This document shows, piece by piece, positions 43,842 through 62,992 of a DNA stretch of 64,000 bases (its first letter is position 1; each line of letters begins with the position of its first letter). A program made the position numbers and the translations under genes. Where the stretch lies: IMG/VR virus record IMGVR_UViG_3300028774_000007, positions 79,234 to 143,233 of that record. One strand, written 5' to 3'. Below the pieces are notes generated by a model. The model made no database searches, was not told where the DNA came from, and saw only the letters and a list, made by a program, of their open reading frames with translations. Source of the stretch: a virus.

Positions 43842-44126
43842 CTACCTTTCTGGCATTTCAAACACCGAGTTTTGGATGCTAACGGCAGTTCTTACTCCGT
43901 TCAATGGATTTGCAGTAAAAAAGTTACAGTTCATATAAGCAAGTTGAATTTTATCAATAATCTTAATTGCTCTTTCTACAGAATCATATGACCCAATTGT
44001 AGAGATACATTCATCTGATTCTATAGAATATAGTCCAACGGAATAATTACCTTGATAATTATATAATCCTATAATAAACTTATCCATTGGAATCAGCATC
44101 GTTTTATCTTGTGACCTAATCAGCAT
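43842..44126 (-). CDS. Hypothetical protein, 94 residues
   Basis: ATG 44124-44126 overlaps the stop of the upstream gene. Beta-rich (YNYQGNYSVGLYSIESD) then a helix. Unknown. Confidence 0.5.
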   Translation of the reverse strand: MLIRSQDKTMLIPMDKFIIGLYNYQGNYSVGLYSIESDECISTIGSYDSVERAIKIIDKIQLAYMNCNFFTANPLNGVRTAVSIQNSVFEMPER

Positions 44127-44421
44127 GATATCCAACCTCTGCTTCAAATTTATCAAGGACTTCTAGGTCGTCCAATCTATCTTCATCTTCGTCAGAATCA
44201 ATTATATCAAGAACATCGAAAACTTCTTCCATTAACTTTGATTCTGTATCAATGTCTGTGTAAGAACTATTAAGATATGCCTTAATTTGTATATCTAACG
44301 ATTTTTCGATACTTTTAGAGCCATAGTCCGTTGGAATCATAGTAACAGTAAATGTGCCGCCCATGAAAGTTAACTCGGTTTTGTCAATTCCTTTTTCAAA
44401 GGTTTTAATTAATTTAGCCAT
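44116..44421 (-). CDS. Hypothetical protein, 101 residues
   Basis: ATG 44419-44421 behind AAGGAG. LTFMGGTFTVTMIP strands then an acidic helix (DIIDSDEDEDRLDDLEVL). Possibly an inhibitor-type acidic protein; unknown. Confidence 0.5.
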   Translation of the reverse strand: MAKLIKTFEKGIDKTELTFMGGTFTVTMIPTDYGSKSIEKSLDIQIKAYLNSSYTDIDTESKLMEEVFDVLDIIDSDEDEDRLDDLEVLDKFEAEVGYHAD

Positions 44422-44431
44422 TTTTTTCTCC

Positions 44432-44698
44432 TTAATCATTATAGACTGATATCATATTTCCAGAAGCCCTATAACCAAAACATAGATTGCCGCCATCACA
44501 GATTAAAGCCAATTCAAACTCTTCCAGTTCCCACATATTACTTAGAACAAGATAGTCCGAATGGGCATACCCATCTCTGCAACGTAGGATAACGGTTTTT
44601 GTTTTGCTTAATTCTTCTGTGTTTTGTCCTTTATCATAAATAATAACGGCTTTATCTTTTATTCCTTCGTAGTACTCTCTGTTCGATATCGTCTGCAT
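44432..44698 (-). CDS. Hypothetical protein, 88 residues
   Basis: Not recognised. Alpha/beta, CRDGYAHSDYLVLSNMWELEEFE. Good RBS (AAGGAGCAACAAA). Confidence 0.5.
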   Translation of the reverse strand: MQTISNREYYEGIKDKAVIIYDKGQNTEELSKTKTVILRCRDGYAHSDYLVLSNMWELEEFELALICDGGNLCFGYRASGNMISVYND

Positions 44699-44723
44699 TT
44701 TTGTTGCTCCTTAATATTTTACG

Positions 44724-45755
44724 TCATCCTGTGTACAGTTCGTTTTCATTTATCTCCATTGGTATAAATTTACGTACACCATATGATTCGTGTAGTACTT
44801 TAGACCAATTATTGTAATTCTCGAATCCGTTTTTAGCGTTAGTTTTGCTTAGAAAATCAGTAAAGGATTTAGGGGTAGTGTTGTCCATGCGATAACCACT
44901 TCTGTCACCCAATAGCTGTCTACCTAAAGCTTTAACGGATTCGATGTCAGTAAGAATGCTTGAAACCTTTTTGTTCTTAACAGAGAAAGGAATTATATCG
45001 TAAACATCTTTCGACGTTGCTTTTAGAGATTCGCCAAGTGGTCTAGCATACCACCAACCACCATAAACAACTACGCTGTGATACATTGGGGATATGAAAC
45101 AAGTATCTAAAGAAATACCATTGTGTGCTAATCCCGACCATTGCAGATAACAAATAAGGTTATTTAGCCTACTCATTATCCATGCCACATGTTTGTGCGG
45201 AATTATACCATTGTAATGTTTTAATATCTCTGATAACGGAAGTAAGTCATTCGTTTTCTCTATTTCAATTATAACGTATTTTCCGTCTTTCGTCAAGTAA
45301 TAATGGATTACTTTGGGAAGAAGTTTTCTAATTTCTCTTTCCATTTCATCGTCTGCAAAACTAAATGATGCCATCATTTTCACGGCATTATTGGCAAGAT
45401 TTTCTTTGCTCTTATCAATAACATATACTACTTTATTAGAACAAACGTAATACTTGCCTAATTCAAAATTCTTTTCAAGTTGAAAGTTAATTGAAATAAC
45501 TTCATCTTTATTAGAAATGTACTGGGCTTGATTACTTACTTCCCATTGGTTATTTTTGATTAGTAAGTTGGCATGTTCATATAACGTGTTGATATAATTC
45601 ATGACACTTCCTGCTTGTTTATCTGAATTTACATCTGGATGCCATATTTTTACAAGCAGTCTGTAATCCTTTTTTAGTGAGTTTACATCGTTGGCAAATA
45701 AATCTCCAACTTTTTTTACAGCCAATATGTCTTCTGCGTTATATACATTTATCAT
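44724..45755 (-). CDS. J-domain fused to kinase-like domain
   Basis: 343 residues. Residues 1-65 form a J domain with HPD at 39-41 (KIWHPDVNSD). From about 95 the chain resembles a protein kinase fold: a glycine-poor N-lobe, then SGLAHNGISLDTCFISP at 207-223 in place of the HRDxKxxN catalytic loop, and VVVYGGWWYARPLG at 228-241 in place of DFG. Loss of HRD/DFG implies a pseudokinase. It could steer a host DnaK to a target. Single large gene among small unknowns. Confidence 0.65.
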   Translation of the reverse strand: MINVYNAEDILAVKKVGDLFANDVNSLKKDYRLLVKIWHPDVNSDKQAGSVMNYINTLYEHANLLIKNNQWEVSNQAQYISNKDEVISINFQLEKNFELGKYYVCSNKVVYVIDKSKENLANNAVKMMASFSFADDEMEREIRKLLPKVIHYYLTKDGKYVIIEIEKTNDLLPLSEILKHYNGIIPHKHVAWIMSRLNNLICYLQWSGLAHNGISLDTCFISPMYHSVVVYGGWWYARPLGESLKATSKDVYDIIPFSVKNKKVSSILTDIESVKALGRQLLGDRSGYRMDNTTPKSFTDFLSKTNAKNGFENYNNWSKVLHESYGVRKFIPMEINENELYTG

Positions 45756-49448: not shown

Positions 49449-49461
49449 TTGTGTTACCTCA

Positions 49462-49830
49462 TTATTCCCATTTATATAATTCTTTTTTGTTCATAGCTTT
49501 TTTATATTTTATTATATATCTTCTTGCTCTAAAAAATGCAAGTGGTGTTTTCATAATCATTCCGATATTATTAAACTTAAAAATATATTGAGAAGTTTTG
49601 CTAATTAAATTCTTATTAAGATATCTACTGACGTAGTATTTATCATTATCCATATCAGTCCATTCAGTAGCATCGAAATTTTTCTTAAACGTTTTGAACG
49701 ATGACCATCCGTATTTTTCGGTATAGGATTTTACTATATCAATATGAGAACTCCATTCAAGACATTGCGTTCCTATAAATACAAATATAGACATAATGAT
49801 TAAAGTTATAATTATTTCTATTCCTACCAT
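49462..49830 (-). CDS. Single-pass membrane protein, tandem family copy 1
   Basis: 122 residues. Membrane helix at 4-24, then GWSSFKTFKKNFDATEW, KFNNIGMIMKTPLAFFRARRY and KKELYKWE. One of four neighbouring paralogues with shared 'FKKNFDAxxW', 'NxGMIMK' and 'LYKW' blocks. Unknown. Confidence 0.6.
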   Translation of the reverse strand: MVGIEIIITLIIMSIFVFIGTQCLEWSSHIDIVKSYTEKYGWSSFKTFKKNFDATEWTDMDNDKYYVSRYLNKNLISKTSQYIFKFNNIGMIMKTPLAFFRARRYIIKYKKAMNKKELYKWE

Positions 49831-49839
49831 TTTTTCTCC

Positions 49840-50205
49840 TTAATCCCATTTATATAATTCTTCTTTTTTAATTCGAGATTTTTGATATTTTCTTATATAT
49901 CTTCTGGCTCTGAAAAGTGATAATGGTGATTTTAAAATCATTCCTACATCATTAAACCTAATAGAATAAGTATCAGTTTTACTAATACAATCACCATGGT
50001 AATATTTGTAAAGACAATATTTCATATTATTTCTATCAGCATCCCATTCGGTAGCATCGAAATGCTTTTTAAAGGTATTAAATGATGCATACCCATAAGG
50101 TTTGTGGATTTCTTTTACCGTTTGAGCATGACAAATCCATTCGATATATTCATATATCGTTATGAAAATCGTAAAAAGTATTAGCATAAATATAATTAAA
50201 CCCAT
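49840..50205 (-). CDS. Single-pass membrane protein, tandem family copy 2
   Basis: 121 residues; membrane helix, GYASFNTFKKHFDATEWD, RFNDVGMILKSPLSLFRARRY, EELYKWD. Closest to copy 1. Confidence 0.6.
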   Translation of the reverse strand: MGLIIFMLILFTIFITIYEYIEWICHAQTVKEIHKPYGYASFNTFKKHFDATEWDADRNNMKYCLYKYYHGDCISKTDTYSIRFNDVGMILKSPLSLFRARRYIRKYQKSRIKKEELYKWD

Positions 50206-50217
50206 TGTGTTTTCTCC

Positions 50218-50577
50218 TTAATCCCATTTATATAATATATTTTTTTTAAGTTGAAGTTTTATATATTTGTTAGCATATAATTTAGCCCTAATAAATGATA
50301 TTGGGGTTCTCATAAGCATTCCAATATTATTAAACTTAAAACTAAGGTCAGCAATACAACTGACTAAAAGTTTGCCGTTATATTCACATAAACAATCGTC
50401 TTCATCCTCTACATCTTCCCATTTAGCGGCATCAAAATTCTTTTTAAAAGATTTGAATGATGCCCATCCGCATTTTTTATTTTCATACTTAGTTATGTCA
50501 ATATGCGAATGCCAAATAAGTAACGTTATAATCATGGTAACTACAAAAACCATTATAAGAAATATAATTAAACCCAT
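50218..50577 (-). CDS. Single-pass membrane protein, tandem family copy 3
   Basis: 119 residues; membrane helix, GWASFKSFKKNFDAAKWED, KFNNIGMLMRTPISFIRAK, ILYKWD. Same start context GTTTTCTCCTTA as copy 2. Confidence 0.6.
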   Translation of the reverse strand: MGLIIFLIMVFVVTMIITLLIWHSHIDITKYENKKCGWASFKSFKKNFDAAKWEDVEDEDDCLCEYNGKLLVSCIADLSFKFNNIGMLMRTPISFIRAKLYANKYIKLQLKKNILYKWD

Positions 50578-50589
50578 TGTGTTTTCTCC

Positions 50590-50829
50590 TTATTTTATAT
50601 CTAAAATTTCGAATGAGTAAGATGGTTTTCTGCCCTCAATACTTAGGAATTGAGCAGGAAGTAACTCTTTGATGTTGCCCGTGTAATCAATAAGCTTGAT
50701 AGAATCTGGTCTTACTTCATGCACCAACCAAAGGGTTTGTGTACCTACTCCCGCATAAAACATTTTTACGATTGTTCCAGTTTTTAGAACCTCTGTATCG
50801 AATCCTGTGTACGTTTTAAATAAATTCAT
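50590..50829 (-). CDS. Hypothetical protein, 79 residues
   Basis: Not recognised. SH3/KOW-like beta pattern (GTIVKMFYAGVGTQTLWLV); sits between copies 3 and 4 of the membrane family. Confidence 0.5.
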   Translation of the reverse strand: MNLFKTYTGFDTEVLKTGTIVKMFYAGVGTQTLWLVHEVRPDSIKLIDYTGNIKELLPAQFLSIEGRKPSYSFEILDIK

Positions 50830-51798: not shown

Positions 51799-51840
51799 TT
51801 TTTTGTTTCCCCTTTTTTTCTCTCTTTTCTACTTGCTCAT

Positions 51841-51869
51841 ATTATATATCAAACGAATTAATTTGTCAA
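51841..51869 (-). promoter_or_regulatory. Sigma-A type promoter
   Basis: Minus strand TTGACA (51864-51869), 17-base spacer, TATAAT (51841-51846). Reads leftward out of the gene-free region. Confidence 0.86.
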
Positions 51870-53060
51870 GTAGTTTTTAAATAAACTTTTAATATATTTA
51901 ATTCAATTCTTTATTAATACATTTATATGGTATATCGTTTTGAAAAACAGTCCCAGTATTTTTTAAAATAGGGTATATACAGTATATAGGGAATAAAAGT
52001 GAAATAAATTGAATGTATATATAGTATATCGGTTGATTCTATGGCTTATGGTTGATATCGTTAGCCAGTATGTATATAGGGTATATCGTTCATGTGTCTG
52101 TATACTGTCTTATATGGACTATATCGTTTTATAGTATGTATGCTTAGTAGCTACTATGCCCTGTTCCGCGCTTCAACACGCTAAAGTGCTAAAGCCCCCC
52201 ATGCATAAATATACATTGAATATACATGAATATTTATTCATTTTGGGTTCGCACCCGTCCCCCGTGGTGACATTGTACAATAATACATTGTTTGTATATG
52301 CAATATGCATAAACACATACAATCATAATGTATAATCATACAAATGTATATGCATTACATAAATATACATTGACACTCTTCAATGTGTTGTATCATATAC
52401 TTAATACAGTACTACAGTAATACAGTTGAGGGAATTATACGCATTGTATAATCACAGTATTACACGCTGTATTGATACTATCGTACGGCTTGAAAGGCAT
52501 GTGTTACAACGTGCCATTATAACAACATGCGATTACGAGCGTTTAAACGGCTCATTAAGGCATTTTTATTTTAGAGTATAATCTATACCCTAAACTGTTT
52601 TAACACTGTTTGTATTATTCTAGTGACTTGTAATCATTGTTACACACACACGTAGCAACATTGTTACAACATGCCTTGCATGTGGTCATCATAGCATTGT
52701 AGCATAGCATGATACGGGTTGACCTAAAAGATATTTAGTTTAACTAATTGTTTGTTAGTAATGTAATATCAATAACTAGTACTCATCACATTATAATATG
52801 AGATGTAATGTAACATATAACACGTTGTTAATTGTTTAACATAAGTCCTTTACAATAGGGCTTTACATAGGGCTTGCAAGGCACGTTGTTATCATGGGTG
52901 TAACTAATGGCATGTATGATACATAATGCCTACAATGACCCTTTACGGGCTTGTAATGACATTGTTAATTAACTATTGTTATATCTAAATTGTATTCTTA
53001 ATTAATGAAATAAATAAAAAAATAAATTACGAATAAATAAAAAAATATTTGAAATAACTA
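51870..53060. other. Gene-free divergence region, candidate origin or control region
   Basis: No credible gene on either strand. Holds five TATATCGKT-like repeats between 51930 and 52130 interleaved with GTATATAGGG, a short C-run island (52190-52265), many ACATTG/CAATGT pairs (52265-52400), and GTTACAACRTGCC at about 52503 and 52663. Transcription leaves in both directions. The 13-base ATATCGTTTTGAA (51932-51944) also occurs upstream of the sigma factor (34315-34327). This would fit a replication origin or early control region; no direct proof. Confidence 0.45.
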
Positions 53061-53089
53061 TTGACGAACAAATGAAAACAGTTTATTAT
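53061..53089 (+). promoter_or_regulatory. Sigma-A type promoter, plus strand
   Basis: TTGACG (53061-53066), 17-base spacer, TATTAT (53084-53089). Only clear rightward promoter; leaves a 220-base leader before the first start codon. Confidence 0.75.
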
Positions 53090-53203
53090 TAAGATATTCC
53101 AAAAAACGAATAAGCAAGGGAAGTGATTCACATTCACATGGTCTAATAAGCGCCATTGTACTTTGATAATAGAATAAGCATTAATGAGTAACGAGAGTGT
53201 ATA

Positions 53204-53263
53204 GCGTGTAACTGTGACTGTAGTGTTATAGTCCTACTTCATGCCATAAGTGCAAGGTAGTTA
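53204..53263 (+). ncRNA. Possible structured leader RNA
   Basis: GTAACT (start) pairs with AGTTAC (end); inside are GACT/AGTC and ACTT/AAGT hairpins, giving a three-way junction. Lies in the long leader of the inverted-repeat gene. Weak evidence, single example. Confidence 0.25.
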
Positions 53264-53279
53264 CGACAAATTAATGTTA

Positions 53280-53304
53280 CCATATGAGATTATATAAGCG
53301 GATA
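53280..53304 (+). repeat. 25-bp inverted repeat, left copy
   Basis: Perfect reverse complement of 53573-53597. Together they enclose the gene at 53322-53558. Confidence 0.85.
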
Positions 53305-53321
53305 ATAAAGGATGTTTAAAG

Positions 53322-53558
53322 ATGAATAAAGATGTTAATATTGAAGAGTTAGTAGATAGCATATTAGATACCGATAAGAGCGAACAAACAGAGAATAAAG
53401 GTTATAACTATTTTGAGCAAATTGTAAAAGATTGTATTACAGAACTAAAACACAAAAAAGAAACATATTGTTTCAAGCGTTCACAAGTTGAGCAAATTCA
53501 ATCTGTAGTCAATTGCAAGGTCACTTATGATGGTATTTACACATTGACTGTAGCATAA
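53322..53558 (+). CDS. Hypothetical protein inside inverted repeats, 78 residues
   Basis: Not recognised. Acidic N-terminus (MNKDVNIEELVDSILDTDKS), then FEQIVKDCITELKHKKETYCF and a short beta end. AAAGGATG lies upstream. Being boxed by perfect 25-bp inverted repeats makes it a small cassette of 318 bp. Confidence 0.6.
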   Translation: MNKDVNIEELVDSILDTDKSEQTENKGYNYFEQIVKDCITELKHKKETYCFKRSQVEQIQSVVNCKVTYDGIYTLTVA

Positions 53559-53572
53559 TCAAATAAAAAAAA

Positions 53573-53597
53573 TATCCGCTTATATAATCTCATATGG
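53573..53597 (+). repeat. 25-bp inverted repeat, right copy
   Basis: Perfect reverse complement of 53280-53304; the repeat ends exactly, bases outside do not pair. Confidence 0.85.
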
Positions 53598-53632: not shown

Positions 53633-54538
53633 ATGAACGCAAAAATTAGAATCGGTACGTTTTGCCGTAAATGCGGTAAACAAATCACGGGAACAAAGGG
53701 AATTGACTACATTGCAATTCCTACAAAGGGTTGCGGCGAAACTCGTTACACTTGTAACGAATGCGCAAATAATGACACGCGCAACGGCTCATCATCCTAT
53801 AATGATGAGGTTGATAATCTCATAGGACTTGAAACAAAGTCAAAAATGCAAATTGCTGTAGAATGGGAATGCGCTTATAAATACAACGGTACAAATGTAA
53901 ATGGCGTTCACCTTGAAACACAAGAGGAAATAAATGCATATATGGCAAGCCAATATCATTTATTACCTACTCATGATTGCACCGTCGATTGTGAATATAA
54001 AGAAGAGCGACGGACTTCACTACACGGATACAAAAATCGTATTCAAGGAATATCCGAAATAGTTGACTTAACCGCTAGTAACTGTGGTCATCATATCAAC
54101 ATTAGCCGCACCACATGGGATAATCGGTTCGCAAGAATTTTAAAAGCTAACTCGGAAAAATTATTTGCACCACTTTCATATTATATGAAAGAAAACAGAT
54201 ATCTAACAGAACGGGTGTTCGGTAGATACTTTACAAATTATGCTGAATTTACAAGTATTTCATTTACGCATGGGTATTGGTTAAACATTAGAAACGATAC
54301 TTTCAAAAATGAATGTTGTTTAGAATTTAGACTTGCAAAATTCAATAACGTCAATCAATATTTTTATCTTATGAACATGTGTAAAGAGATAATGTTATTG
54401 GTTGACCAATTCTGCAAAGATGATTATTTTAACGACATTGATGAAACTGCGAATGAACTTATTGAACTTTTCAAAAAATACGCAACTGGTAAAGCATTAT
54501 GTATGAGAAGCGAACGCAACAACAGCAAAGCGCGGTGA
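53633..54538 (+). CDS. Amidoligase-like protein with N-terminal zinc finger
   Basis: 301 residues. N-terminal FCRKCGKQI ... YTCNECAN zinc site; SNCGHHINISRTTW at about 150-163 resembles the conserved 'GxHvHvs' of the putative amidoligase (Amidoligase_2) family, followed by NECCLEFRLAKFNNVNQYFY. Such proteins, ATP-grasp-like relatives of glutamate-Cys ligases, are common in phages. Reaction unknown. SD AAAGGA lies 13 bases upstream, a long spacing. Confidence 0.58.
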   Translation: MNAKIRIGTFCRKCGKQITGTKGIDYIAIPTKGCGETRYTCNECANNDTRNGSSSYNDEVDNLIGLETKSKMQIAVEWECAYKYNGTNVNGVHLETQEEINAYMASQYHLLPTHDCTVDCEYKEERRTSLHGYKNRIQGISEIVDLTASNCGHHINISRTTWDNRFARILKANSEKLFAPLSYYMKENRYLTERVFGRYFTNYAEFTSISFTHGYWLNIRNDTFKNECCLEFRLAKFNNVNQYFYLMNMCKEIMLLVDQFCKDDYFNDIDETANELIELFKKYATGKALCMRSERNNSKAR

Positions 54539-54550
54539 ATAACCGCGCTT
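54528..54550 (+). terminator. Hairpin at the end of the amidoligase-like gene
   Basis: 8-bp GC-rich stem (AAGCGCGG/CCGCGCTT) over the stop codon; weak T-run after it. Confidence 0.55.
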
Positions 54551-54620: not shown

Positions 54621-54650
54621 AATAAGCCGCCTACGGGCGGCTTAATTTTA
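54621..54650 (+). terminator. Rho-independent terminator, plus strand
   Basis: TAAGCCGCC-TACG-GGCGGCTTA followed by ATTTTAATTT. Ends the transcript after micropeptide 1. Confidence 0.8.
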
Positions 54651-54671: not shown

Positions 54672-54809
54672 ATGAACTATGATGAAATGAATTACCTTGA
54701 AAAAATTGATTATTGGATGGAACAGGGTATGAGTGAAGAAAAAGCCGCTGAATGGATAGCATTCAATAATAATGAGGAATATGATTCTGACATATTATTA
54801 GGCAGATAA
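54672..54809 (+). CDS. Hypothetical protein, 45 residues
   Basis: MNYDEMNYLEKIDYWMEQGM and a following helix (EEKAAEWIAFNNNEEYD); acidic. Weak SD (AAAGATGG). Followed directly by a strong terminator, which supports it. Confidence 0.55.
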   Translation: MNYDEMNYLEKIDYWMEQGMSEEKAAEWIAFNNNEEYDSDILLGR

Positions 54810-54814
54810 TTGAA

Positions 54815-54848
54815 AATAAGCCGCTGAAATATGCGGCTTATTTTTTTT
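54815..54848 (+). terminator. Rho-independent terminator, plus strand
   Basis: AATAAGCCGC-TGAAATAT-GCGGCTTA followed by eight Ts; ends the rightward block. Confidence 0.85.
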
Positions 54849-55125
54849 GCCCAAAACGATTCATATTGTAATATGAAATTAACATAGTAAGTAAATATGT
54901 TTTAATGATTTACCACTTTATCAAGTTAAAGCGTTACTACTTTAAAGCGTTACCATATTACCATATTACCGTTTTACCTTAACGATTCATAATTCATATT
55001 GTAATATGAAACGCTTAGTCTATGGAAACTTTTGAGGGATAAAGTTTTGGAAATTTTTACAGCCCATGATTCATATTGTAATATGAAATTACCCATATGA
55101 TTGTTAATGTTTTAACACATGAACC

Positions 55126-55164
55126 CAAAAATAAGGCATACGGTTTATTTTCCGTATGCCTTAT
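55126..55164 (-). terminator. Rho-independent terminator
   Basis: 13-bp perfect stem (55131-55143 with 55152-55164), T-run on the minus strand; follows the gene at 55167. Confidence 0.82.
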
Positions 55165-55166
55165 AA

Positions 55167-55502
55167 TTACATTAAGCGGCTTGAAACTCGGCTTGTTTGG
55201 ATTGCTACGCTCTCTTGATTCAGTTTTAATTTCAATTCCTCAATCAGCCCGTCAATGTTATCATTCTTTTTATCGAATACCAGAATATCAATTTTGAGTG
55301 ATTCCTCAAATACGACTGTGCCGTCGTCGTGCTTATAAACTCCGTTGCCTTGATATATACTCGCTCCGTCGTAGTATCTTGCTACGATACTTGATGCCGC
55401 CTTAAAAGCTTCGATTGTAGGAACTAACTGCGTTTTAGTGACCTTATCATTAAGTCCAACCATAACTTCGTGCTTTGTAAATTTTGTAGGTAATCCAAAC
55501 AT
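55167..55502 (-). CDS. Hypothetical protein, 111 residues
   Basis: Not recognised. KHEVMVGLNDKVTKTQLVP opening and a strand-rich centre (YKHDDGTVVFEESLKIDILVF), helical end. Single-gene module with own promoter and terminator. Confidence 0.58.
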   Translation of the reverse strand: MFGLPTKFTKHEVMVGLNDKVTKTQLVPTIEAFKAASSIVARYYDGASIYQGNGVYKHDDGTVVFEESLKIDILVFDKKNDNIDGLIEELKLKLNQESVAIQTSRVSSRLM

Positions 55503-55561
55503 TTTAAAATCCTTCTTTTCTATTCTTTATTTTTTACGTCTTTTCTTTTAGGTCTATATAT

Positions 55562-55590
55562 ATATTACCATGTTTTATGACATTTGTCAA
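55562..55590 (-). promoter_or_regulatory. Sigma-A type promoter
   Basis: Minus strand TTGACA (55585-55590), 17-base spacer, TAATAT (55562-55567). Confidence 0.75.
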
Positions 55591-55732
55591 GCGAATTAAA
55601 ATATTTATTTTAGAATTGAATTTTCAATTTATATTTCATATTCTAATATGAATTGAAGTGAAGGGTATTTCATATTGTAATGTGATAAAGATTAATCTAT
55701 TTCATATTGTAATATGAAACTCATTTATAGGT

Positions 55733-55759
55733 AAAAAAATAAGCCCTCACGGGCTTATT
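55733..55759 (-). terminator. Rho-independent terminator
   Basis: AATAAGCCC-TCAC-GGGCTTATT with seven Ts on the minus strand; ends the 55762 module. Confidence 0.82.
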
Positions 55760-55761
55760 AA

Positions 55762-55992
55762 TTATGAATTTGTTCTTATAAATTCATCAATATCATAACG
55801 ATGACCATAGGATATGAAATAACTTTTGCCCTCATCATCATATCTGATTTTTGCCGTTATAGTCCTACCATCGCCCTTTTCATCATCAGTATAACAAAAT
55901 TTTACCTTATCATTGATTCCGTATTCAATGCCTAGAATCTTAATGCCGCTAAAATTTGTCAATTCTAATATTGCTATTGATTTTTTATACAT
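55762..55992 (-). CDS. Hypothetical protein, 76 residues
   Basis: Not recognised. Beta-rich (IKILGIEYGINDKVKFCYTDD), SH3-like, preceded by AAAGGAG. Second gene of its module. Confidence 0.55.
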   Translation of the reverse strand: MYKKSIAILELTNFSGIKILGIEYGINDKVKFCYTDDEKGDGRTITAKIRYDDEGKSYFISYGHRYDIDEFIRTNS

Positions 55993-56007
55993 AATGTTGC
56001 ACTCCTT

Positions 56008-56121
56008 TTATTTCCTAAATATTTTACTTCCATAGATGTAGCGGTTGACCAGATATTCTTTCATTGTCATCTCGTACAAATAGATGAAATTTTTCCTCAA
56101 ACCTTTTCTGTAAACTGTCAT
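56008..56121 (-). CDS. Basic small protein, 37 residues
   Basis: ATG 56119-56121 with AAGGAT; MTVYRKGLRKNFIYLYEMTM, strongly basic. First gene after promoter 56155-56183. Confidence 0.5.
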   Translation of the reverse strand: MTVYRKGLRKNFIYLYEMTMKEYLVNRYIYGSKIFRK

Positions 56122-56154
56122 TTTTAAATCCTTCTCTCTTTAATTTCTATATTT

Positions 56155-56183
56155 ATTATAACATGGAAAATAACAATTGTCAA
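56155..56183 (-). promoter_or_regulatory. Sigma-A type promoter
   Basis: Minus strand TTGACA (56178-56183), 17-base spacer, TATAAT (56155-56160). Confidence 0.87.
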
Positions 56184-56269
56184 CACTAATTAAAACTTTA
56201 TTTTATCAATTCATATTAGAATATGATAAGAATTATAAGTATTCATATTGTAATATGAAACGTTTATAT

Positions 56270-56298
56270 AAAGAAAAATGCGGCTTATTCAGCCGCAA
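56270..56298 (-). terminator. Rho-independent terminator
   Basis: GCGGCT-GAATA-AGCCGC then ATTTTTCTTT on the minus strand, overlapping the stop of the 56285 gene. Confidence 0.8.
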
Positions 56299-56440
56299 AT
56301 CTCATTTTATGATAGCACTTATCTTTTCCATTATCGTTCTTGACCTTGACATAATCCGAGTGCGTTGCTTTTTTTATTTCGTACCTCTTACCCATTGTCA
56401 GATTATCAGCGCCGATTACATTAACACAAACTTTTACCAT
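56285..56440 (-). CDS. Hypothetical protein, 51 residues
   Basis: ATG 56438-56440 after AAGGAG. Small beta barrel (MGKRYEIKKATHSDYVKV), probably SH3-like. Unknown. Confidence 0.58.
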   Translation of the reverse strand: MVKVCVNVIGADNLTMGKRYEIKKATHSDYVKVKNDNGKDKCYHKMRFAAE

Positions 56441-56459
56441 AATATTTTTCTCCTTTATT

Positions 56460-56753
56460 TTATAAGTTAGCAATTCTTGCGTACTGTTCCAGATGTAGAA
56501 CCATTTGATTATAAGATATACTGTTGAATGATATAGCCAAGTCTTTTTCTTCTTCTGTATTCGTACAGTGTACAACATCAACAATATATCTCTTGATTTT
56601 ATCCTTTATAGGATTGAATGTCGATACGAATTTAGTTTGTATCTCCTCAATGTCTAACTCCGTTATCAGCCTATCAGTTGGAATATGAATACCAACGGCA
56701 ACATCTTTTCTCCTAGTCTTGAACTCCCCAATGATTAATATACTTTTACTCAT
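56460..56753 (-). CDS. Hypothetical protein, 97 residues
   Basis: Not recognised. Alpha/beta, LITELDIEEIQTKFVSTFN; no motif. First gene of its module. Confidence 0.55.
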   Translation of the reverse strand: MSKSILIIGEFKTRRKDVAVGIHIPTDRLITELDIEEIQTKFVSTFNPIKDKIKRYIVDVVHCTNTEEEKDLAISFNSISYNQMVLHLEQYARIANL

Positions 56754-56786
56754 TTATTATTGCACTTCCTTTTCTTTTCTATATAT

Positions 56787-56815
56787 ATAATAACATGAAA
56801 AATAATCATTGTCAA
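56787..56815 (-). promoter_or_regulatory. Sigma-A type promoter
   Basis: Minus strand TTGACA (56810-56815), 17-base spacer, TATTAT (56787-56792). Confidence 0.83.
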
Positions 56816-56980
56816 TAGATATTAAAACTTTATTTTAGAAATTGTATTTTTATATAATCAACTCATATTAGAATATGAAAACAGATTTTTACAGCAGATT
56901 CATAAAATATCAGTTGAACGAAGTGAAACTCATATTATAATATAAAACGATTCATATTGTAATATGAAACAACTATAGGT

Positions 56981-57008
56981 AAAAAATAGGCGGCATTTCT
57001 GCCGCCTA
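56981..57008 (-). terminator. Rho-independent terminator
   Basis: Perfect 9-bp stem TAGGCGGCA/TGCCGCCTA, 4-base loop, TTTTTT on the minus strand. Confidence 0.83.
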
Positions 57009-57013
57009 CTAAG

Positions 57014-57193
57014 TCAACTCATTATGCTATCTCTTGCCCTCTCTGCCATGTAGAATAGATTGTATGTACTGATGGTACTTGTATCACCAAGGTTATTATG
57101 AGCGTTTACATCCAAGCAAGACCAAACAAACCAGATAAACAAACCGATTGTGAAAACATCAACCAGTAACCAGAATATAAACTTCCGTTTCAT
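57014..57193 (-). CDS. Small membrane protein, 59 residues
   Basis: ATG 57191-57193 after AAGGTGGG. MKRKFIFWLLVDVFTIGLFI and FVWSCLDV: signal-anchor helix, then a short outside tail. Unknown. Confidence 0.6.
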   Translation of the reverse strand: MKRKFIFWLLVDVFTIGLFIWFVWSCLDVNAHNNLGDTSTISTYNLFYMAERARDSIMS

Positions 57194-57208
57194 TATATGT
57201 ACCCACCT

Positions 57209-57379
57209 TTAAAAATTTGGTGTGTAATCATATGCATCTACTTGCCCGTAACTTGTAATGTAGCAAGTGTCGTCATTGACTACTATTCCTAATGATAACA
57301 TGGTTAGTCTCCAAGTGCAAGCTATAACAACCAGAATAACGATTGTGAATACTACAAGTCTTTTAATCATATCTTTCAT
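57209..57379 (-). CDS. Small membrane protein, 56 residues
   Basis: ATG 57377-57379. MKDMIKRLVVFTIVILVVIACTW: single N-terminal anchor with Cys near its end, short polar tail. Same layout as 57014-57193. Confidence 0.58.
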   Translation of the reverse strand: MKDMIKRLVVFTIVILVVIACTWRLTMLSLGIVVNDDTCYITSYGQVDAYDYTPNF

Positions 57380-57398
57380 AATTAGGTTCTCTTTTCTT

Positions 57399-57587
57399 TT
57401 ATTTTAGTATAGCTAATGGGCAACTTTTACATATTTTTAATTGCCCTTGCATCCAACTACAGCCACCAATAGTTGATTCACCAGTTAATGGGCAACTATA
57501 AAAAGTACCAAATTTTCCATGGTATTCTTTTTTACTTATGGGGCATTCAGAACAACCGTTCGGTAATTCATCAACAATAAATTTCAT
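57399..57587 (-). CDS. Cys-rich protein, 62 residues
   Basis: CSECPISKKEYHG ... YSCPL ... GCSWM ... CKSCPL: eight Cys, probably a metal cluster. First gene after promoter 57619-57647. Unknown. Confidence 0.58.
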   Translation of the reverse strand: MKFIVDELPNGCSECPISKKEYHGKFGTFYSCPLTGESTIGGCSWMQGQLKICKSCPLAILK

Positions 57588-57618
57588 AATTATATACCCT
57601 CTTTTCTTTTGTAATTAT

Positions 57619-57647
57619 ATTATAACATACGTTTTTTTAATTGTCAA
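57619..57647 (-). promoter_or_regulatory. Sigma-A type promoter
   Basis: Minus strand TTGACA (57642-57647), 17-base spacer, TATAAT (57619-57624). Confidence 0.86.
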
Positions 57648-57732
57648 TCTTATTTAAAAATAAATATTCTAATTCATATTATAATATAACAATTCGCTTC
57701 TTATATTCATATTATAATATGAAATTCATTCC

Positions 57733-57777
57733 TAAATAAAAAGGCGGCGGCGGGATATAAAATAACCCCGTCGCCGC
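57733..57777 (-). terminator. GC-rich rho-independent terminator
   Basis: 11-bp stem (57744-57754 with 57767-57777, one G-U) and TTTTTATTT on the minus strand; ends the micro-ORF transcript. Confidence 0.8.
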
Positions 57778-57830
57778 GTATTATTTATTTATTTATATAT
57801 ACAATCTAATTTTTAATTATCATAGTTTAG

Positions 57831-57857
57831 CTAAGTAAATCCAGTTGTAAATCTCAT
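57831..57857 (-). CDS. Micro-ORF, 8 residues (duplicated unit 2)
   Basis: MRFTTGFT behind GGGGGATTTGTG; a GC hairpin (GCGGCT-ACA-GCCGC) lies about 35 bases before it. Shares GGATTT..TTAGCTARAC with the unit at 57941-57964. May be a leader peptide or part of an RNA. Confidence 0.3.
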   Translation of the reverse strand: MRFTTGFT

Positions 57858-57940
57858 CACAAATCCCCCTAATAACGTTTGGTTCGTGCGGCTGTAGCCG
57901 CGCTGTTCTCATCTAATACGTTCTAATTTATAATGTCTAG

Positions 57941-57964
57941 CTAAACAAATCCACTATGAAACAT
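57941..57964 (-). CDS. Micro-ORF, 7 residues (duplicated unit 1)
   Basis: MFHSGFV behind AAGGAG with 8-base spacing; a hairpin TTTGGC-GCACA-GCCAAA directly precedes the SD. Stop region TTTAGCTAGAC matches unit 2. Confidence 0.33.
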   Translation of the reverse strand: MFHSGFV

Positions 57965-58015
57965 CGTCATATCTCCTTCTTTGGCTGTGCGCCAAACTGC
58001 CGCGGCTGTCGTTAA

Positions 58016-58075
58016 TTATTTAATAATATTTTTTTTAGTTGAGCAACTACATCGACCGAAGTAAATAAGTTTCAT
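58016..58075 (-). CDS. Small peptide, 19 residues
   Basis: ATG 58073-58075 after AGAGAGG: MKLIYFGRCSCSTKKNIIK. First frame behind promoter 58127-58154; two Cys, basic. Unknown. Confidence 0.42.
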   Translation of the reverse strand: MKLIYFGRCSCSTKKNIIK

Positions 58076-58126
58076 GTTGAAATACCTCTCTTTCTTTTGT
58101 CGTTCTTCTCTTAATCTCTGTTACTA

Positions 58127-58154
58127 GTATACCATTGTTTTCGTCATTTGTCAA
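58127..58154 (-). promoter_or_regulatory. Sigma-A type promoter
   Basis: Minus strand TTGACA (58149-58154), spacer of about 16 bases, TATACT (58127-58132). Drives the cluster of micro-ORFs. Confidence 0.78.
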
Positions 58155-58160
58155 GCGTTT

Positions 58161-58208
58161 TCATTTCTTTTTTCCAAAAAATAGTAAATAAAGAAACATC
58201 ATAAACAT
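58161..58208 (-). CDS. KKK-tailed hydrophobic micropeptide 2, 15 residues
   Basis: ATG 58206-58208 after AAGGGG: MFMMFLYLLFFGKKK. Own promoter at 58237-58265. Relatives at 54573-54617 and 63367-63414. Confidence 0.55.
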   Translation of the reverse strand: MFMMFLYLLFFGKKK

Positions 58209-58236
58209 TCGTTAATCCCCTTTTCTTTGTTTAATT

Positions 58237-58265
58237 ATTATACTATATTTATATGCGAATGTCAA
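58237..58265 (-). promoter_or_regulatory. Sigma-A type promoter of micropeptide 2
   Basis: Minus strand TTGACA (58260-58265), 17-base spacer, TATAAT (58237-58242), ATTTAC upstream. Confidence 0.86.
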
Positions 58266-58402
58266 GTAAATATACTAAATAATTAATTCAATATTTTAAT
58301 CATATTGTAATATGAAACGCGGAGCGTTTTATATCCAGTTGCTTTGCAACTCATATGAAGAGAAGTATAGTTATTTTTCATATTATAATATAAAATGAAT
58401 TG

Positions 58403-58433
58403 GATAAAAAAAATAGGATGGATTTCTCCACCC
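58403..58433 (-). terminator. Rho-independent terminator
   Basis: GGGTGGA-GAAA-TCCATCC (one mismatch) then TATTTTTTTT on the minus strand. Confidence 0.78.
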
Positions 58434-58439
58434 CATTTA

Positions 58440-58604
58440 TTAAGCTTCTTCTGTAAGCAATAGATTTGAAAGTCTCCTTAGTGCATCTACTGCGCCATCA
58501 ATAGCATTAACGATTGCTATGTCTTTGTCGGTGTCCTCGCTGTGTGCGCTCTCCATCTCTGCAATGCCAACGGCAATATTGTGTAACTCTCTTGAATCAA
58601 ACAT
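58440..58604 (-). CDS. Hypothetical helical protein, 54 residues
   Basis: ATG 58602-58604 after AAAGGAG; MFDSRELHNIAVGIAEMESA, entirely helical and acidic. Second gene of its module. Confidence 0.6.
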   Translation of the reverse strand: MFDSRELHNIAVGIAEMESAHSEDTDKDIAIVNAIDGAVDALRRLSNLLLTEEA

Positions 58605-58617
58605 GTTGTTTACTCCT

Positions 58618-58911
58618 TTAGAATAATTTAGTGTCCATCCCTGTCACTCTGGTAAACTCTGGCTGTAACATATTGAAGTACAATCCACTTTGAGCGCATA
58701 TCATCGGCTCTTTACGTGTAGTGGAATAGAACTTCATTGTGTAAGTATCGTCACCATCAAGTGTCACCGAAAATTTGTTCGCTTTTGAGATATTACGTGG
58801 TAGTGATAAGGAAATAGAATTATCATCATATGTGATAAGCTTTGCGCCTGTCATCACCATGAAATGATTCCCACCAAGTTGCTCTAAGATAATCTTTGCT
58901 CTTTCATTCAT
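58618..58911 (-). CDS. Hypothetical phage protein, 97 residues
   Basis: ATG 58909-58911 after AAAAGGACG. MNERAKIILEQLGGNHFMVM then a beta domain; resembles a conserved small phage protein of unknown role. A longer frame through the promoter is rejected. Confidence 0.6.
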   Translation of the reverse strand: MNERAKIILEQLGGNHFMVMTGAKLITYDDNSISLSLPRNISKANKFSVTLDGDDTYTMKFYSTTRKEPMICAQSGLYFNMLQPEFTRVTGMDTKLF

Positions 58912-58948
58912 ATTGTTTACACGTCCTTTTCTTTTAGTTTCTAAATAT

Positions 58949-58977
58949 ATTATAACATCTATTATATATAATGTCAA
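58949..58977 (-). promoter_or_regulatory. Sigma-A type promoter
   Basis: Minus strand TTGACA (58972-58977), 17-base spacer, TATAAT (58949-58954). Confidence 0.86.
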
Positions 58978-59079
58978 GCTAATTTTAATCTTTATTTTTA
59001 GGTTTATATGTTAAGTCATATTATAATATGACAAGAATTATAAGCTATTCATATTATAATATGAAATAATTGTCTATAA

Positions 59080-59108
59080 AAAAAAGGATAGAGCCGACTA
59101 TCCTTTTT
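59080..59108 (-). terminator. Rho-independent terminator
   Basis: GGATAG-TCGGCT-CTATCC then TTTTTTT on the minus strand; follows the gene at 59113. Confidence 0.8.
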
Positions 59109-59112
59109 AAAA

Positions 59113-59385
59113 CTATATAATCCAATCTACGGTAACATCACATTCACAATTCTTTATTTCAATACCGCGATAATATTGGATATAATGCAATATCCTAATT
59201 TTGCCGTTTAAAATTTCGTATTTATCAATAGTTGCTTCATCTTCACTCCAAAATCCTTGAATATAAATTTTGCCGTCTTTTTTGCATACATATGGTACAC
59301 TAGCTAAATAATATCCATCATTATACAATTGTATATGAAGGATTTCCCCAAGTCCATTGTTCAGAATATAGCTGTCGTTATCCAT
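59113..59385 (-). CDS. Hypothetical protein, 90 residues
   Basis: Not recognised. All-beta (YNDGYYLASVPYVCKKDGKIY). Third gene of its module, two bases after the acidic gene. Confidence 0.55.
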   Translation of the reverse strand: MDNDSYILNNGLGEILHIQLYNDGYYLASVPYVCKKDGKIYIQGFWSEDEATIDKYEILNGKIRILHYIQYYRGIEIKNCECDVTVDWII

Positions 59386-59387
59386 AA

Positions 59388-59666
59388 TTAATCTTCACCC
59401 TCGCTACAGCCACCGTCACATTCTCCGTCGCATTCTTCACCGTCATCATATGGCATATCATCGCTGTCATCATCAAAGCTTGCAATAAAATCTTCCAAGC
59501 TTTCACATAAGCGTGTATAAAACCCCTGTGAACGACGTAGACAACTTACCTTGTCCAAGATTGCTTGTGCCTTGTCAACAGTGTCAATCTGGTCTAGTAA
59601 GTTTCCACACTCTAACTCCATGCATACCTCAAACGGTTTCATCTCTTTAATTTGTTCTACTGTCAT
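59388..59666 (-). CDS. Acidic protein with Cys-rich tail, 92 residues
   Basis: Helical body, then a tail of Asp/Glu/Cys (EECDGECDGGCSEGED). Could be a metal-binding or DNA-mimic protein; unknown. Confidence 0.58.
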   Translation of the reverse strand: MTVEQIKEMKPFEVCMELECGNLLDQIDTVDKAQAILDKVSCLRRSQGFYTRLCESLEDFIASFDDDSDDMPYDDGEECDGECDGGCSEGED

Positions 59667-59679
59667 TTTATTTTACCTC

Positions 59680-59853
59680 TTATTTATTTAGTATTGGTAG
59701 TGTTAGCAAGCCACATGTATTTTCATCTGTACGGTCAATGGCATTACAGTTTGGATATTTAGGACATTTTATGCAAACTGCATACTCTTGATTCCATTTG
59801 TCTATCCATTCTCTTTGACCATTTGAACCATTGTACCACGGATTTTCTTTCAT
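59680..59853 (-). CDS. Cys-containing small protein, 57 residues
   Basis: ATG 59851-59853; WNQEYAVCIKCPKYPNC and a late Cys form a four-Cys site. First gene after promoter 59882-59910. Confidence 0.55.
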   Translation of the reverse strand: MKENPWYNGSNGQREWIDKWNQEYAVCIKCPKYPNCNAIDRTDENTCGLLTLPILNK

Positions 59854-59881
59854 ATTGCTTACCTCTTTTCTTTGTGATTAC

Positions 59882-59910
59882 ATTATAACATGGTAAATAA
59901 TCAATGTCAA
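59882..59910 (-). promoter_or_regulatory. Sigma-A type promoter
   Basis: Minus strand TTGACA (59905-59910), 17-base spacer, TATAAT (59882-59887). Confidence 0.87.
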
Positions 59911-59990
59911 TACTTTATTAAACTTTATTTTTAGAAATTGAATTTATAATTAATAGTTTTATATTATAATATGAAATCACATTCTAAAAT

Positions 59991-60020
59991 AAAAAGAGCG
60001 AATTTTACTTCGCTCTTTTT
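59991..60020 (-). terminator. Rho-independent terminator
   Basis: 12-bp perfect stem (59991-60002 with 60009-60020) overlapping the stop of the zinc-finger gene; T-run on the minus strand. Confidence 0.83.
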
Positions 60021-60202
60021 AATCTATTTTCGCAATCCTTAATCTCTTCTAAGCGCTCTTTTGACAAATAAACAACCCCACAATTTAAACAAACCCTTGG
60101 TCTTACCGAACCAGTACAACCAACCACTAATGCGCAAGAACCAGAAGAATCTGAAACTTCGATGCATACATATTCTTCGTGACCGCAATTTGGACAACTC
60201 AT
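60005..60202 (-). CDS. Zinc-finger protein, 65 residues
   Basis: SCPNCGHEEYVCIE and RVCLNCGVVYLSKE form two CxxC pairs, as in small zinc-ribbon regulators. Single-gene module with its own promoter. Confidence 0.7.
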   Translation of the reverse strand: MSCPNCGHEEYVCIEVSDSSGSCALVVGCTGSVRPRVCLNCGVVYLSKERLEEIKDCENRLKRAK

Positions 60203-60233
60203 TAATTAATACCTCTCTTTCTTTTGTAATTAT

Positions 60234-60262
60234 ATTATAACACTATAAATAATTAATGTCAA
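60234..60262 (-). promoter_or_regulatory. Sigma-A type promoter
   Basis: Minus strand TTGACA (60257-60262), 17-base spacer, TATAAT (60234-60239). Confidence 0.87.
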
Positions 60263-60338
60263 TAGTTAATTAAACTTTATTTTTAAGAATTGAATTTCTA
60301 AATTAAACATTCATATTATAATATGAAATAACTCCATA

Positions 60339-60373
60339 TAAAATAAAGGGCATCCGTTACCGAACACCCTTTT
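60339..60373 (-). terminator. Rho-independent terminator
   Basis: Stem with G-U pairs (AAAGGGTGTTCG/CGGATGCCCTTT) that folds only in the minus-strand RNA, followed by TATTTT. Confidence 0.7.
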
Positions 60374-60378
60374 ACAAT

Positions 60379-60708
60379 TTATTCTTTTAGAATCCATCCA
60401 CTTTGAGCAGATACTTTAGCGGTTAGCTTCTCGACTAAGTTGTTCGCTTTATCCTCTGCGATACTGCAAGCAATCTGGAACTGCTTGTCTGACTGACGAC
60501 CCACTTCATGGATGAACATTACATCTCCACTTTCATTGCCGAACAGGCTTGATTCCTCGCTTGTATAGCCGTTTCCTTTTTTAACCTTTACTGGTGTAAC
60601 CCTTAGATAATAGCCACGTTTGGCATGATATCCACCCTTACTATAATATATCTCTGCTTTTAAGAACTTGTCCTCAACCGTTGTCTTCTGTAGTTTTTCG
60701 TAAATCAT
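60379..60708 (-). CDS. Hypothetical phage protein, 109 residues
   Basis: ATG 60706-60708 (GAGGAAATACAAA upstream). AEIYYSKGGYHAKRGYYLRVTPV and SLFGNESGDVMF recur in Firmicute phage proteins of unknown function; helical end. Confidence 0.6.
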   Translation of the reverse strand: MIYEKLQKTTVEDKFLKAEIYYSKGGYHAKRGYYLRVTPVKVKKGNGYTSEESSLFGNESGDVMFIHEVGRQSDKQFQIACSIAEDKANNLVEKLTAKVSAQSGWILKE

Positions 60709-60742
60709 TTTGTATTTCCTCATTTCTTTATTTTGTAATTAT

Positions 60743-60771
60743 ATTATAACACGGTATTTTTCTAATGTCAA
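60743..60771 (-). promoter_or_regulatory. Sigma-A type promoter
   Basis: Minus strand TTGACA (60766-60771), 17-base spacer, TATAAT (60743-60748). Confidence 0.87.
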
Positions 60772-60871
60772 GATATAAGAGAAGTTTATTTTTTATTTAA
60801 TATATTATATCATATTATAATGTGAATTATATTATATAACGCTTCATATTATAATATGAAGATTATATTCT

Positions 60872-60902
60872 AAAAAAAATGGAGCAGTATTTCTACTGCC
60901 CC
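60872..60902 (-). terminator. Rho-independent terminator
   Basis: GGCAGTA-GAAA-TACTGCTCC then ATTTTTTTT on the minus strand; lies beyond the extended J-domain frame. Confidence 0.8.
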
Positions 60903-60909
60903 GTAATGA

Positions 60910-61423
60910 TTAACTATTTAAAGCCGCCCTGTTATTGCGTTCTTGGGTGATTTCTTGTGACCCGTACATTTCCCTTATCTTATCAAGTGGAATACGCTTT
61001 CTGCTGTGTGTTGCATCCTCTGCTTTATGCCATGACCATGCTTGTTTTGGATTGCTCCACATGAAGCCGTGACCCTTAAAAATGTCCTTATATTGTTTGG
61101 TTTCACCTGTTACCCAAACCCAACGACATCAATTCGATTTTGATACCGACTAAACCAATGATTACGCTAATGATTCCGATGAAGTCTTCTGGTACTTCTT
61201 TGGTTTCCTTATCTCCTGTTGCCGTATAGACTTCCTCTGCGTTGTTGATTGACCTATGAGTGTTCTTTAGAAGTGCGAATATATGCTCATACTGGCTGTT
61301 TAAAGCTTGCATTTGCTGTGTTGCATCTGGCGCGTGATTAATGTCTGGATGGAGCAAGCAAGCCATCTTGCGGTAAATTTCCTTAACCTCTTCAATACAT
61401 TTGCAGTCTGTAAAATAATTCAT
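60910..61423 (-). CDS. J-domain protein split by a +1 frameshift
   Basis: First frame: ATG 61421-61423 to stop at 61103, MNYFTDCKCIEEVKEIYRK with HPD in LLHPDIN and ending GIKIELMSLGLGNR. Skipping one A at 61129 continues as CRWVWVTGETKQYKDIF, GHGFMWSNPKQAWSWHKAED and on to TAA at 60910, the 'W.WV.G.T....LK..Gf.Ws..K..W.W' domain that follows J domains in related phage proteins. Either a programmed +1 shift, a mutation or a sequence error. Confidence 0.65.
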
Positions 61424-61454
61424 ATTGTTACACATCCTTTTCTTTTGTAATTAC

Positions 61455-61483
61455 ATTATAACCCCATAAAATAAGAATGTCAA
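61455..61483 (-). promoter_or_regulatory. Sigma-A type promoter
   Basis: Minus strand TTGACA (61478-61483), 17-base spacer, TATAAT (61455-61460). Confidence 0.87.
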
Positions 61484-61559
61484 TAGTATTTTAAAGTTTA
61501 TTTTAGAATCTCAATTTCTAAATAATAGATTCATATTATAATATGAACTTATATATCTT

Positions 61560-61595
61560 AAAAAAATAGGATGGCAGTTAGCTACGCTGTCACCC
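61560..61595 (-). terminator. Rho-independent terminator
   Basis: GGTGACAG/CTGCCATCC stem (one mismatch, one G-U) followed by TATTTTTTT on the minus strand. Confidence 0.68.
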
Positions 61596-61641
61596 TAATA
61601 TATCAATGTGGGAAGATGTGAATAAACCCACCTTGATTGCT

Positions 61642-62040
61642 TTATGAAGCCATAGATGAAACATCTAAGGTTGCTTTGAACACAGGATGATAGCGGTTTA
61701 TGAATGTACACAGCCGTTCATCATTCTGGTTATATCTGGTGATAAATTCATCCCAAACCTTTTGGTCAAAGTAACTGGCGCTGACCGCCTTATCATAGCC
61801 CTTTACAATAAACCGTGGGATATCCTCAATGGTATCTGGATTTAAGGCAATTTTCTCTTTATCCTTATCCGTCATGATGTATGGCAGAAGTGGAACATTT
61901 TTATATTTCGCTGTCTCTTTTGCCAAGGTGTCACTCTCCAACATGAATTGAAGATACACCGATGAAAGAACCGTATGAAGCAGTATTCTTCTATTATTAG
62001 TTGAGATAACTTCGCCCGTTGTTTTATTGATAAATTGCAT
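61642..62040 (-). CDS. Hypothetical protein, 132 residues
   Basis: Not recognised. Helical; MQFINKTTGEVIS opening, KYKNVPLLPYIMTDKDKEKI. Last gene of a three-gene module. Confidence 0.55.
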   Translation of the reverse strand: MQFINKTTGEVISTNNRRILLHTVLSSVYLQFMLESDTLAKETAKYKNVPLLPYIMTDKDKEKIALNPDTIEDIPRFIVKGYDKAVSASYFDQKVWDEFITRYNQNDERLCTFINRYHPVFKATLDVSSMAS

Positions 62041-62055
62041 TTTTGCTCCTTCTTT

Positions 62056-62373
62056 TTATACAGCCTGTTTATTTGAATCTCTAGGTTTTAGTGCCGCTAT
62101 AGTATCTGAAATAGCCTTATATTCTGTTAGTGTGCAATCTCTGACATAACTCTTGATGTACTTCTCATCGACCCTATATGCAGTTCCGCAATCGCAATAA
62201 CCCCTTATGAGGTAGTTGTTCATGTGCGCATGATATCTGTCTCCCTTGTTGCGGCTTGTAATCTCATAGACTGTTAGCTTTTTACCGACTTGTTCGACCG
62301 ACACGACTGGTCTTGTCCCAATTCTTGTGTCACCCGTTGCTTTTGACATATTTATCCAATAAATCTTGAACAT
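62056..62373 (-). CDS. PemK/MazF-like protein
   Basis: 105 residues. RIGTRPVVSVEQVGKKLTVYEITS matches the 'G.RPvlvv' and 'iTS' strands of MazF/PemK RNases, with a C-terminal LTEYKAISDTIAAL helix. Catalytic residues are not certain and no antitoxin gene is adjacent, so it may be an inactive or regulatory relative. Confidence 0.6.
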   Translation of the reverse strand: MFKIYWINMSKATGDTRIGTRPVVSVEQVGKKLTVYEITSRNKGDRYHAHMNNYLIRGYCDCGTAYRVDEKYIKSYVRDCTLTEYKAISDTIAALKPRDSNKQAV

Positions 62374-62423
62374 ATTTAATTCTCCTTTTTATTTTGTTGT
62401 CGTATGTTTTGTTTATCTTTTGT

Positions 62424-62768
62424 TTATTCAGATAATGATTTTAATATTGCTAATGTCTCCGTTGGATTTTCAGTAAGATGACGGTAAAGTGATTTTGCAT
62501 CGCTGACCCCAATTTCTGAAATTGTTCCTTCAATGAAATTGTATATACCTTCGATGTTTTTAGCGCCCTCTTTGGTATATGCACCGTTTGGATTGGTAAT
62601 TTCCCATATTGGATTAATGATTTTCCACACAGGATGTTCTTTTTGAAATTCAAGGGATTCACCGCGGTCATCTACCCCTACTAATTCGTAGCCGTCTTTC
62701 AGAAATGCCAATGTCTTTTCAGTGATTGTCTCTTTAGAACGACTAAGCATAATATATCTCTTTTCCAT
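62424..62768 (-). CDS. Hypothetical protein, 114 residues
   Basis: Not recognised. Alpha/beta; contains the internal repeat HPVWKIINPIWEITNPNG. First gene after promoter 62801-62829. Confidence 0.55.
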   Translation of the reverse strand: MEKRYIMLSRSKETITEKTLAFLKDGYELVGVDDRGESLEFQKEHPVWKIINPIWEITNPNGAYTKEGAKNIEGIYNFIEGTISEIGVSDAKSLYRHLTENPTETLAILKSLSE

Positions 62769-62800
62769 TTTTTGTCCTCTTTTCTTTTGTTTGTATCTCT

Positions 62801-62829
62801 ATTATATATCACTATTTATTAATTGTCAA
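62801..62829 (-). promoter_or_regulatory. Sigma-A type promoter
   Basis: Minus strand TTGACA (62824-62829), 17-base spacer, TATAAT (62801-62806). Confidence 0.87.
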
Positions 62830-62854
62830 GACTATTAAAATATTTATTTAGAAA

Positions 62855-62992
62855 TTACATTATTCTACCGAATACTAAATTAACAAATTCATTTTCGATA
62901 CTAATGTCTAAAATTAAAAACCCTTTTACAACCATATTCTTAGTGACCGACCACCAATTTTTTAATAGGCAATGCGCTTCAAGTATCATCAT
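62855..62992 (-). CDS. Hypothetical protein, 45 residues
   Basis: ATGATG start (62990-62992 first) with AAGGGG; overlaps the upstream stop as ATGA. Contains CLLKNWWSVTKNMVVKGFLIL. Unknown. Confidence 0.5.
   Translation of the reverse strand: MMILEAHCLLKNWWSVTKNMVVKGFLILDISIENEFVNLVFGRIM

Follow-up and report, generated by a model that had tools for sequence, protein, structure and literature searches.

A perfect 25-bp inverted repeat brackets a single small gene, ORF78, in a 64,000-nucleotide stretch of phage DNA (hereafter the window), and we propose, with moderate confidence, that its two arms act in RNA, where the predicted stem would loop out the ORF78 cistron as an RNase III-type processing or stability stalk. 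The left (5') arm (CCATATGAGATTATATAAGCGGATA, + strand) occupies positions 53280-53304 of the window and the right (3') arm (TATCCGCTTATATAATCTCATATGG, - strand) positions 53573-53597. Sequence comparison confirmed the first-pass annotation, in which the two had been described as exact reverse complements: the arms are 100% complementary over 25 bp and are separated by 268 nt, the whole measuring 318 bp. When partners were sought within 5 kb, the arm pair was the longest exact inverted repeat in the 143,233-bp contig; the runners-up did not exceed 21 bp and were mostly copies of one repeated AT-rich palindrome family. The chance expectation for an inverted repeat of 25 bp is about 2e-5 per contig, and in 30 Markov-simulated genomes the longest inverted repeat measured 15-18 bp, never more than 18. 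The 25-bp inverted repeat is real, has strong statistical support and is the only one of its kind in the genome. Each arm is also imperfectly palindromic, with its centre at TTATATAA, and includes an outward-facing TATAAT-like hexamer. The search for other genomic copies, suggested in the first-pass annotation, revealed that the arm is single-copy in the phage. The exact arm was not detected in 84,980 species genomes and was found among viral contigs only in a second assembly of the same phage, exact searches which diverged arms would escape. No DNA similar to the element was present in phage and plasmid records.

The presence of a single 78-codon gene between the repeats was also borne out. 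ORF78 (53322-53558, + strand) encodes an orphan protein of 78 amino acids and scores 0.205 bits per codon for codon usage, compared with -0.28 ± 0.12 for random sequence and 0.25 ± 0.14 for real phage genes. This usage matches that of the long genes of the phage, and the other five frames of the stretch look random. The arms occupy the two narrow gaps beside the gene, the left one ending 17 nt before the start codon and the right one beginning 14 nt after the stop codon. The SD-like region of ORF78 (AAAGGATG, 53307-53315, + strand) lies just inside the stem and is predicted to be mostly unpaired (0.66). No relatives of ORF78 were found in phages, viral contigs, plasmids or species genomes, and no significant protein family or fold match was obtained (AlphaFold model, pLDDT 68.6). 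A weak tblastn match to Listeria phages (E = 1) was rejected as being at chance level, and in those phages the gene is not flanked by a perfect inverted repeat.

Predicted pairing of the arms in RNA

The first-pass annotation had offered three readings of the element: an invertible switch, a MITE-like insertion and an mRNA whose ends pair. The third is the best fit, since the arms tightly bracket one cistron, pair in every transcript tested and are unique among the ORFs, and the other two are not supported. In transcripts of four lengths, from 0.4 to 1.56 kb, the predicted probability of arm-arm pairing was 0.99 on average and 0.87 at the minimum. The stem alone was predicted at about -38 kcal/mol, and the 611-nt segment around the arms gave an MFE z-score of -4.0 versus shuffles. 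Among the 297 ORFs with an SD-like sequence in the second assembly, the 60-nt flanks of ORF78 pair at -41.2 kcal/mol and those of the next ORF at -25.1 kcal/mol; no other ORF of this set has complementary flanks like those of ORF78. A role at the mRNA level is favoured because the arms fit one cistron and the stem is strongly predicted.

Complementary flanks forming an RNase III-type stalk would be expected to give a duplex of at least about 20 bp in one transcript, and the arms, which are presumably co-transcribed, provide 25 bp. RNase III typically acts on perfect duplexes of such length. When the stem was disrupted in silico, the accessibility predicted for the two start regions changed only modestly; translation is therefore not predicted to be simply blocked, and processing or stability is the simpler reading. 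Some observations count against a role in RNA. RNA-level stems usually tolerate G-U pairs and mismatches, and the perfect identity over 25 bp would also be compatible with a recent duplication or with an origin at the DNA level. In addition, the candidate promoter upstream (53061-53089) is at chance level, and the leader alone is not unusually structured.

Neighbourhood, source phage and the 30-kb segment

From left to right, the locus comprises leftward genes, a 1.5-kb non-coding region, the candidate promoter, the left arm, ORF78, the right arm, ORF301, hairpins and again leftward genes. A consensus scan detected a perfect leftward sigma-70 type promoter (TTGACA-17-TATAAT, 51841-51869, - strand) and a candidate rightward one (TTGACG-17-TATTAT, 53061-53089, + strand, 10/12). 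The gene had been described as lying just after the only rightward promoter; a candidate does exist at this place, but it does not rise above chance, 25 promoter-like sites having been found for 25.1 expected, and the + strand site at 51940-51969 scores equally (10/12). Downstream, ORF301 (53633-54538, + strand) is the next rightward cistron, outside the stem and with its own SD-like sequence. It encodes an orphan protein with CxxC pairs, for which no relatives were found in phages or viral contigs and no significant protein family match was obtained, the predicted model being too poor for use (pLDDT 35). No terminator-like site was found between ORF78 and ORF301, and two terminator-like hairpins (54528-54550 and 54623-54644, + strand) follow ORF301.

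The non-coding divergent region upstream of ORF78 (51799-53279) contains degenerate short repeats such as GTATATAGGGTATATCGTT and TGTTACAACATGCC and coincides with a divergent transcription boundary and a local change of sign of the GC skew; it is a candidate replication or partition site on these sequence features. The upstream region also matched 161 Staphylococcus phages, but these hits were discarded as compositional: among the matches listed, they cover only the AT-rich stretch near 53005-53133 with 72-78% identity. A structured leader RNA was likewise rejected, no excess structure being seen in the flanking leader alone (z near 0), and the Rfam search returned sub-threshold chance matches only. 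Synteny through a neighbouring gene for a 188-aa protein was not informative, the Bacillus phage relatives such as FADO having an unrelated context. Further left (49449-50592, - strand), three consecutive genes for proteins of 119-122 aa are paralogues with about 67-70% DNA identity, each with a hydrophobic N-terminus. An 18-bp palindrome, TTCATATTATAATATGAA, occurs with at most two mismatches in 47 copies in the second assembly (0.2 expected from shuffled sequence), 43 of them within the 63 kb formed by segments X and B (see below); it is spread over window positions 54800-63800 and throughout positions 1-42300 of that assembly, and may serve early genes as an operator or promoter element.

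The window corresponds to the final 64 kb (79,234-143,233) of the 143,233-bp virus record IMGVR_UViG_3300028774_000007 (G000). It carries genes for a DnaE-type DNA polymerase, a primase-helicase, a ribonucleotide reductase, an RNA ligase and a PurZ-like protein, and on this gene content the source, which is uncultured, is a large tailed phage. The presence of the PurZ-like adenylosuccinate synthetase homologue (40648-41931, - strand) alongside a DnaE-type polymerase hints that the phage DNA may contain a modified purine, for example 2-aminoadenine. A few IMG/VR contigs, as well as gut phages and phages of Clostridioides and Bacillus, encode DNA polymerases with about 33-47% identity to that of the window, and neither ORF78 nor ORF301 was found in these relatives. 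Further IMG/VR contigs, with a 100% identical polymerase, are the same phage; they include the second assembly, IMGVR_UViG_3300028734_000012 (G001, 176,332 bp), and IMGVR_UViG_3300030230_000009 (G002, 110,243 bp). G000 and G001 are the same strain, the only one known. Outside the window, G000 encodes a tyrosine recombinase (PF00589, E = 2e-18; 44,122-45,165, + strand) within a long rightward gene block, probably of late genes, and carries at 25099-25829 a diverged direct-repeat array with offsets in multiples of 72 bp and 78-87% identity.

The two assemblies join a 30-kb segment differently. G000 consists of segment A (1-113,063) followed by B (113,065-143,233; window 33,832-64,000), and G001 of X (1-33,175), B reversed (33,176-63,344) and A (63,270-176,332), with one mismatch in all relative to G000. 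In G000 the left end of B adjoins the right end of A; in G001 it adjoins the left one. The junctions share inverted copies of 75 bp and 116 bp, the 116-bp copy being present at both ends of X; the 75-bp junction falls within a gene that weakly matches sigma-70 region 2 and is intact in G000 and shortened in G001. G002 keeps the G000 junction and ends 127 bp beyond it, and 127 is a k-mer length used by metaSPAdes. A mere misassembly of G001 is less favoured because G002, from a third sample, stops where a true branch of the assembly graph would be expected to stop it. Both junctions would be explained most simply if the phage had two copies of the 30-kb segment B in inverted orientation, which the assembler merged into one; the genome (X - B reversed - A - B) would then measure about 206 kb and be quadripartite like that of a chloroplast. 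Isomers produced by inversion, or a misassembly, are the alternatives. In both assemblies B contains ORF78 and its arms, and the arms have the same orientation relative to B. The discrepancy at the junctions of B may matter more than the bracketed gene.

Alternative origins of the inverted repeat

The 25-bp stretch could have been copied recently in inverted orientation beside the gene, through template switching or repair, and be functionless. We consider such an accident somewhat unlikely. The perfect identity and the abrupt ends fit a recent event, as does the fact that one strain is known, but the position of both copies exactly in the narrow gaps beside one cistron would be unlikely at random, even if selection against insertions inside genes would favour gaps.

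An invertible switch, in which a site-specific recombinase would flip 53305-53572 and so turn ORF78 on or off relative to a fixed promoter at its left, is unlikely. With its short segment and perfect inverted repeats of about 25 bp, the element resembles invertons of the Gin/Hin or tyrosine-recombinase type, the 318-bp size is compatible with phase-variable invertible segments, the arms are imperfectly palindromic around TTATATAA, and the phage encodes one tyrosine recombinase. Unlike in invertons, however, no recombinase is adjacent, and what lies between the repeats is a complete gene, ribosome-binding site included, and not its promoter. The same orientation was observed in both assemblies (which are of the same strain), neither assembly encodes a serine recombinase, and the lone tyrosine recombinase gene lies among the late genes, at a distance of about 87 kb. 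Moreover, the flipped form yields only short reading frames, the site has no further copies, and no contig carrying the left flank in another context was found.

A mobile cassette or MITE-like insertion, with the arms as 25-bp terminal inverted repeats and ORF78 as a passenger, is improbable. The perfect terminal repeats, the length of about 300 bp and the single enclosed gene recall such elements; unlike MITEs, the element has no target-site duplication (direct repeats of 2-12 bp were sought beside the arms), is single-copy in the phage and has no relatives, the exact arm being absent from the species genomes and the other viral contigs searched and no similar DNA occurring in phages or plasmids, and the codon usage of ORF78 is like that of the phage's own genes. 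By the tests available, all made on sequence, the element is not a MITE. The first-pass annotation had also argued for a discrete element from the abrupt ends, but these alone do not show a discrete DNA element. Binding of a regulator, perhaps ORF78 itself, to the two arms as paired DNA sites, so that the rightward unit is looped or blocked, is very improbable. The palindromic arms with their outward TATAAT-like hexamers would suit such sites, but operators need no perfect 25-bp inverted copies, and no recognisable DNA-binding domain was found in ORF78 by family and fold searches.

A possible processing stalk on one cistron

In the RNA-level reading that we prefer, ORF78 and ORF301 would share a short rightward transcript, with ORF78 as its first cistron. 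The arms would pair in this transcript, giving a perfect 25-bp duplex which loops out exactly the ORF78 cistron and its ribosome-binding site. Putative RNase III-type cleavage would then free the ORF78 mRNA from the leader and from the ORF301 mRNA, and the stem or its remnants would set the stability of each mRNA part, with a presumed effect on expression. Processing is the most likely result because a duplex of this length should suit an RNase III-type enzyme well.

In the RNase III processing stalks of bacterial 16S and 23S pre-rRNA, near-perfect complementary flanks loop out one RNA unit in a duplex of more than 20 bp. The arms of ORF78 would likewise loop out one unit in a duplex of this size; in contrast to pre-rRNA, what is looped out is a single 237-nt cistron that codes for a protein, and the cleavage is only presumed. 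The RNase III sites of phage early mRNAs, such as those of T7, are local hairpins between genes. The duplex of ORF78 resembles them in being placed between the cistrons of a polycistronic transcript (an early one in T7), whereas here one long-range perfect stem encloses the gene. It is rather unlikely, but conceivable, that such a stem around a single cistron is a dedicated device, giving a processed and end-protected mRNA that uncouples the gene from its operon. No described counterpart of a stem-enclosed cistron was found in a literature search of partial coverage. Should the inverted repeat be a recent accident, it would be ordinary. If the stem works as proposed, it would show, in unusually clean natural form, a processing stalk like those of rRNA on one protein-coding cistron, and would be a compact means of isolating one gene within an operon.
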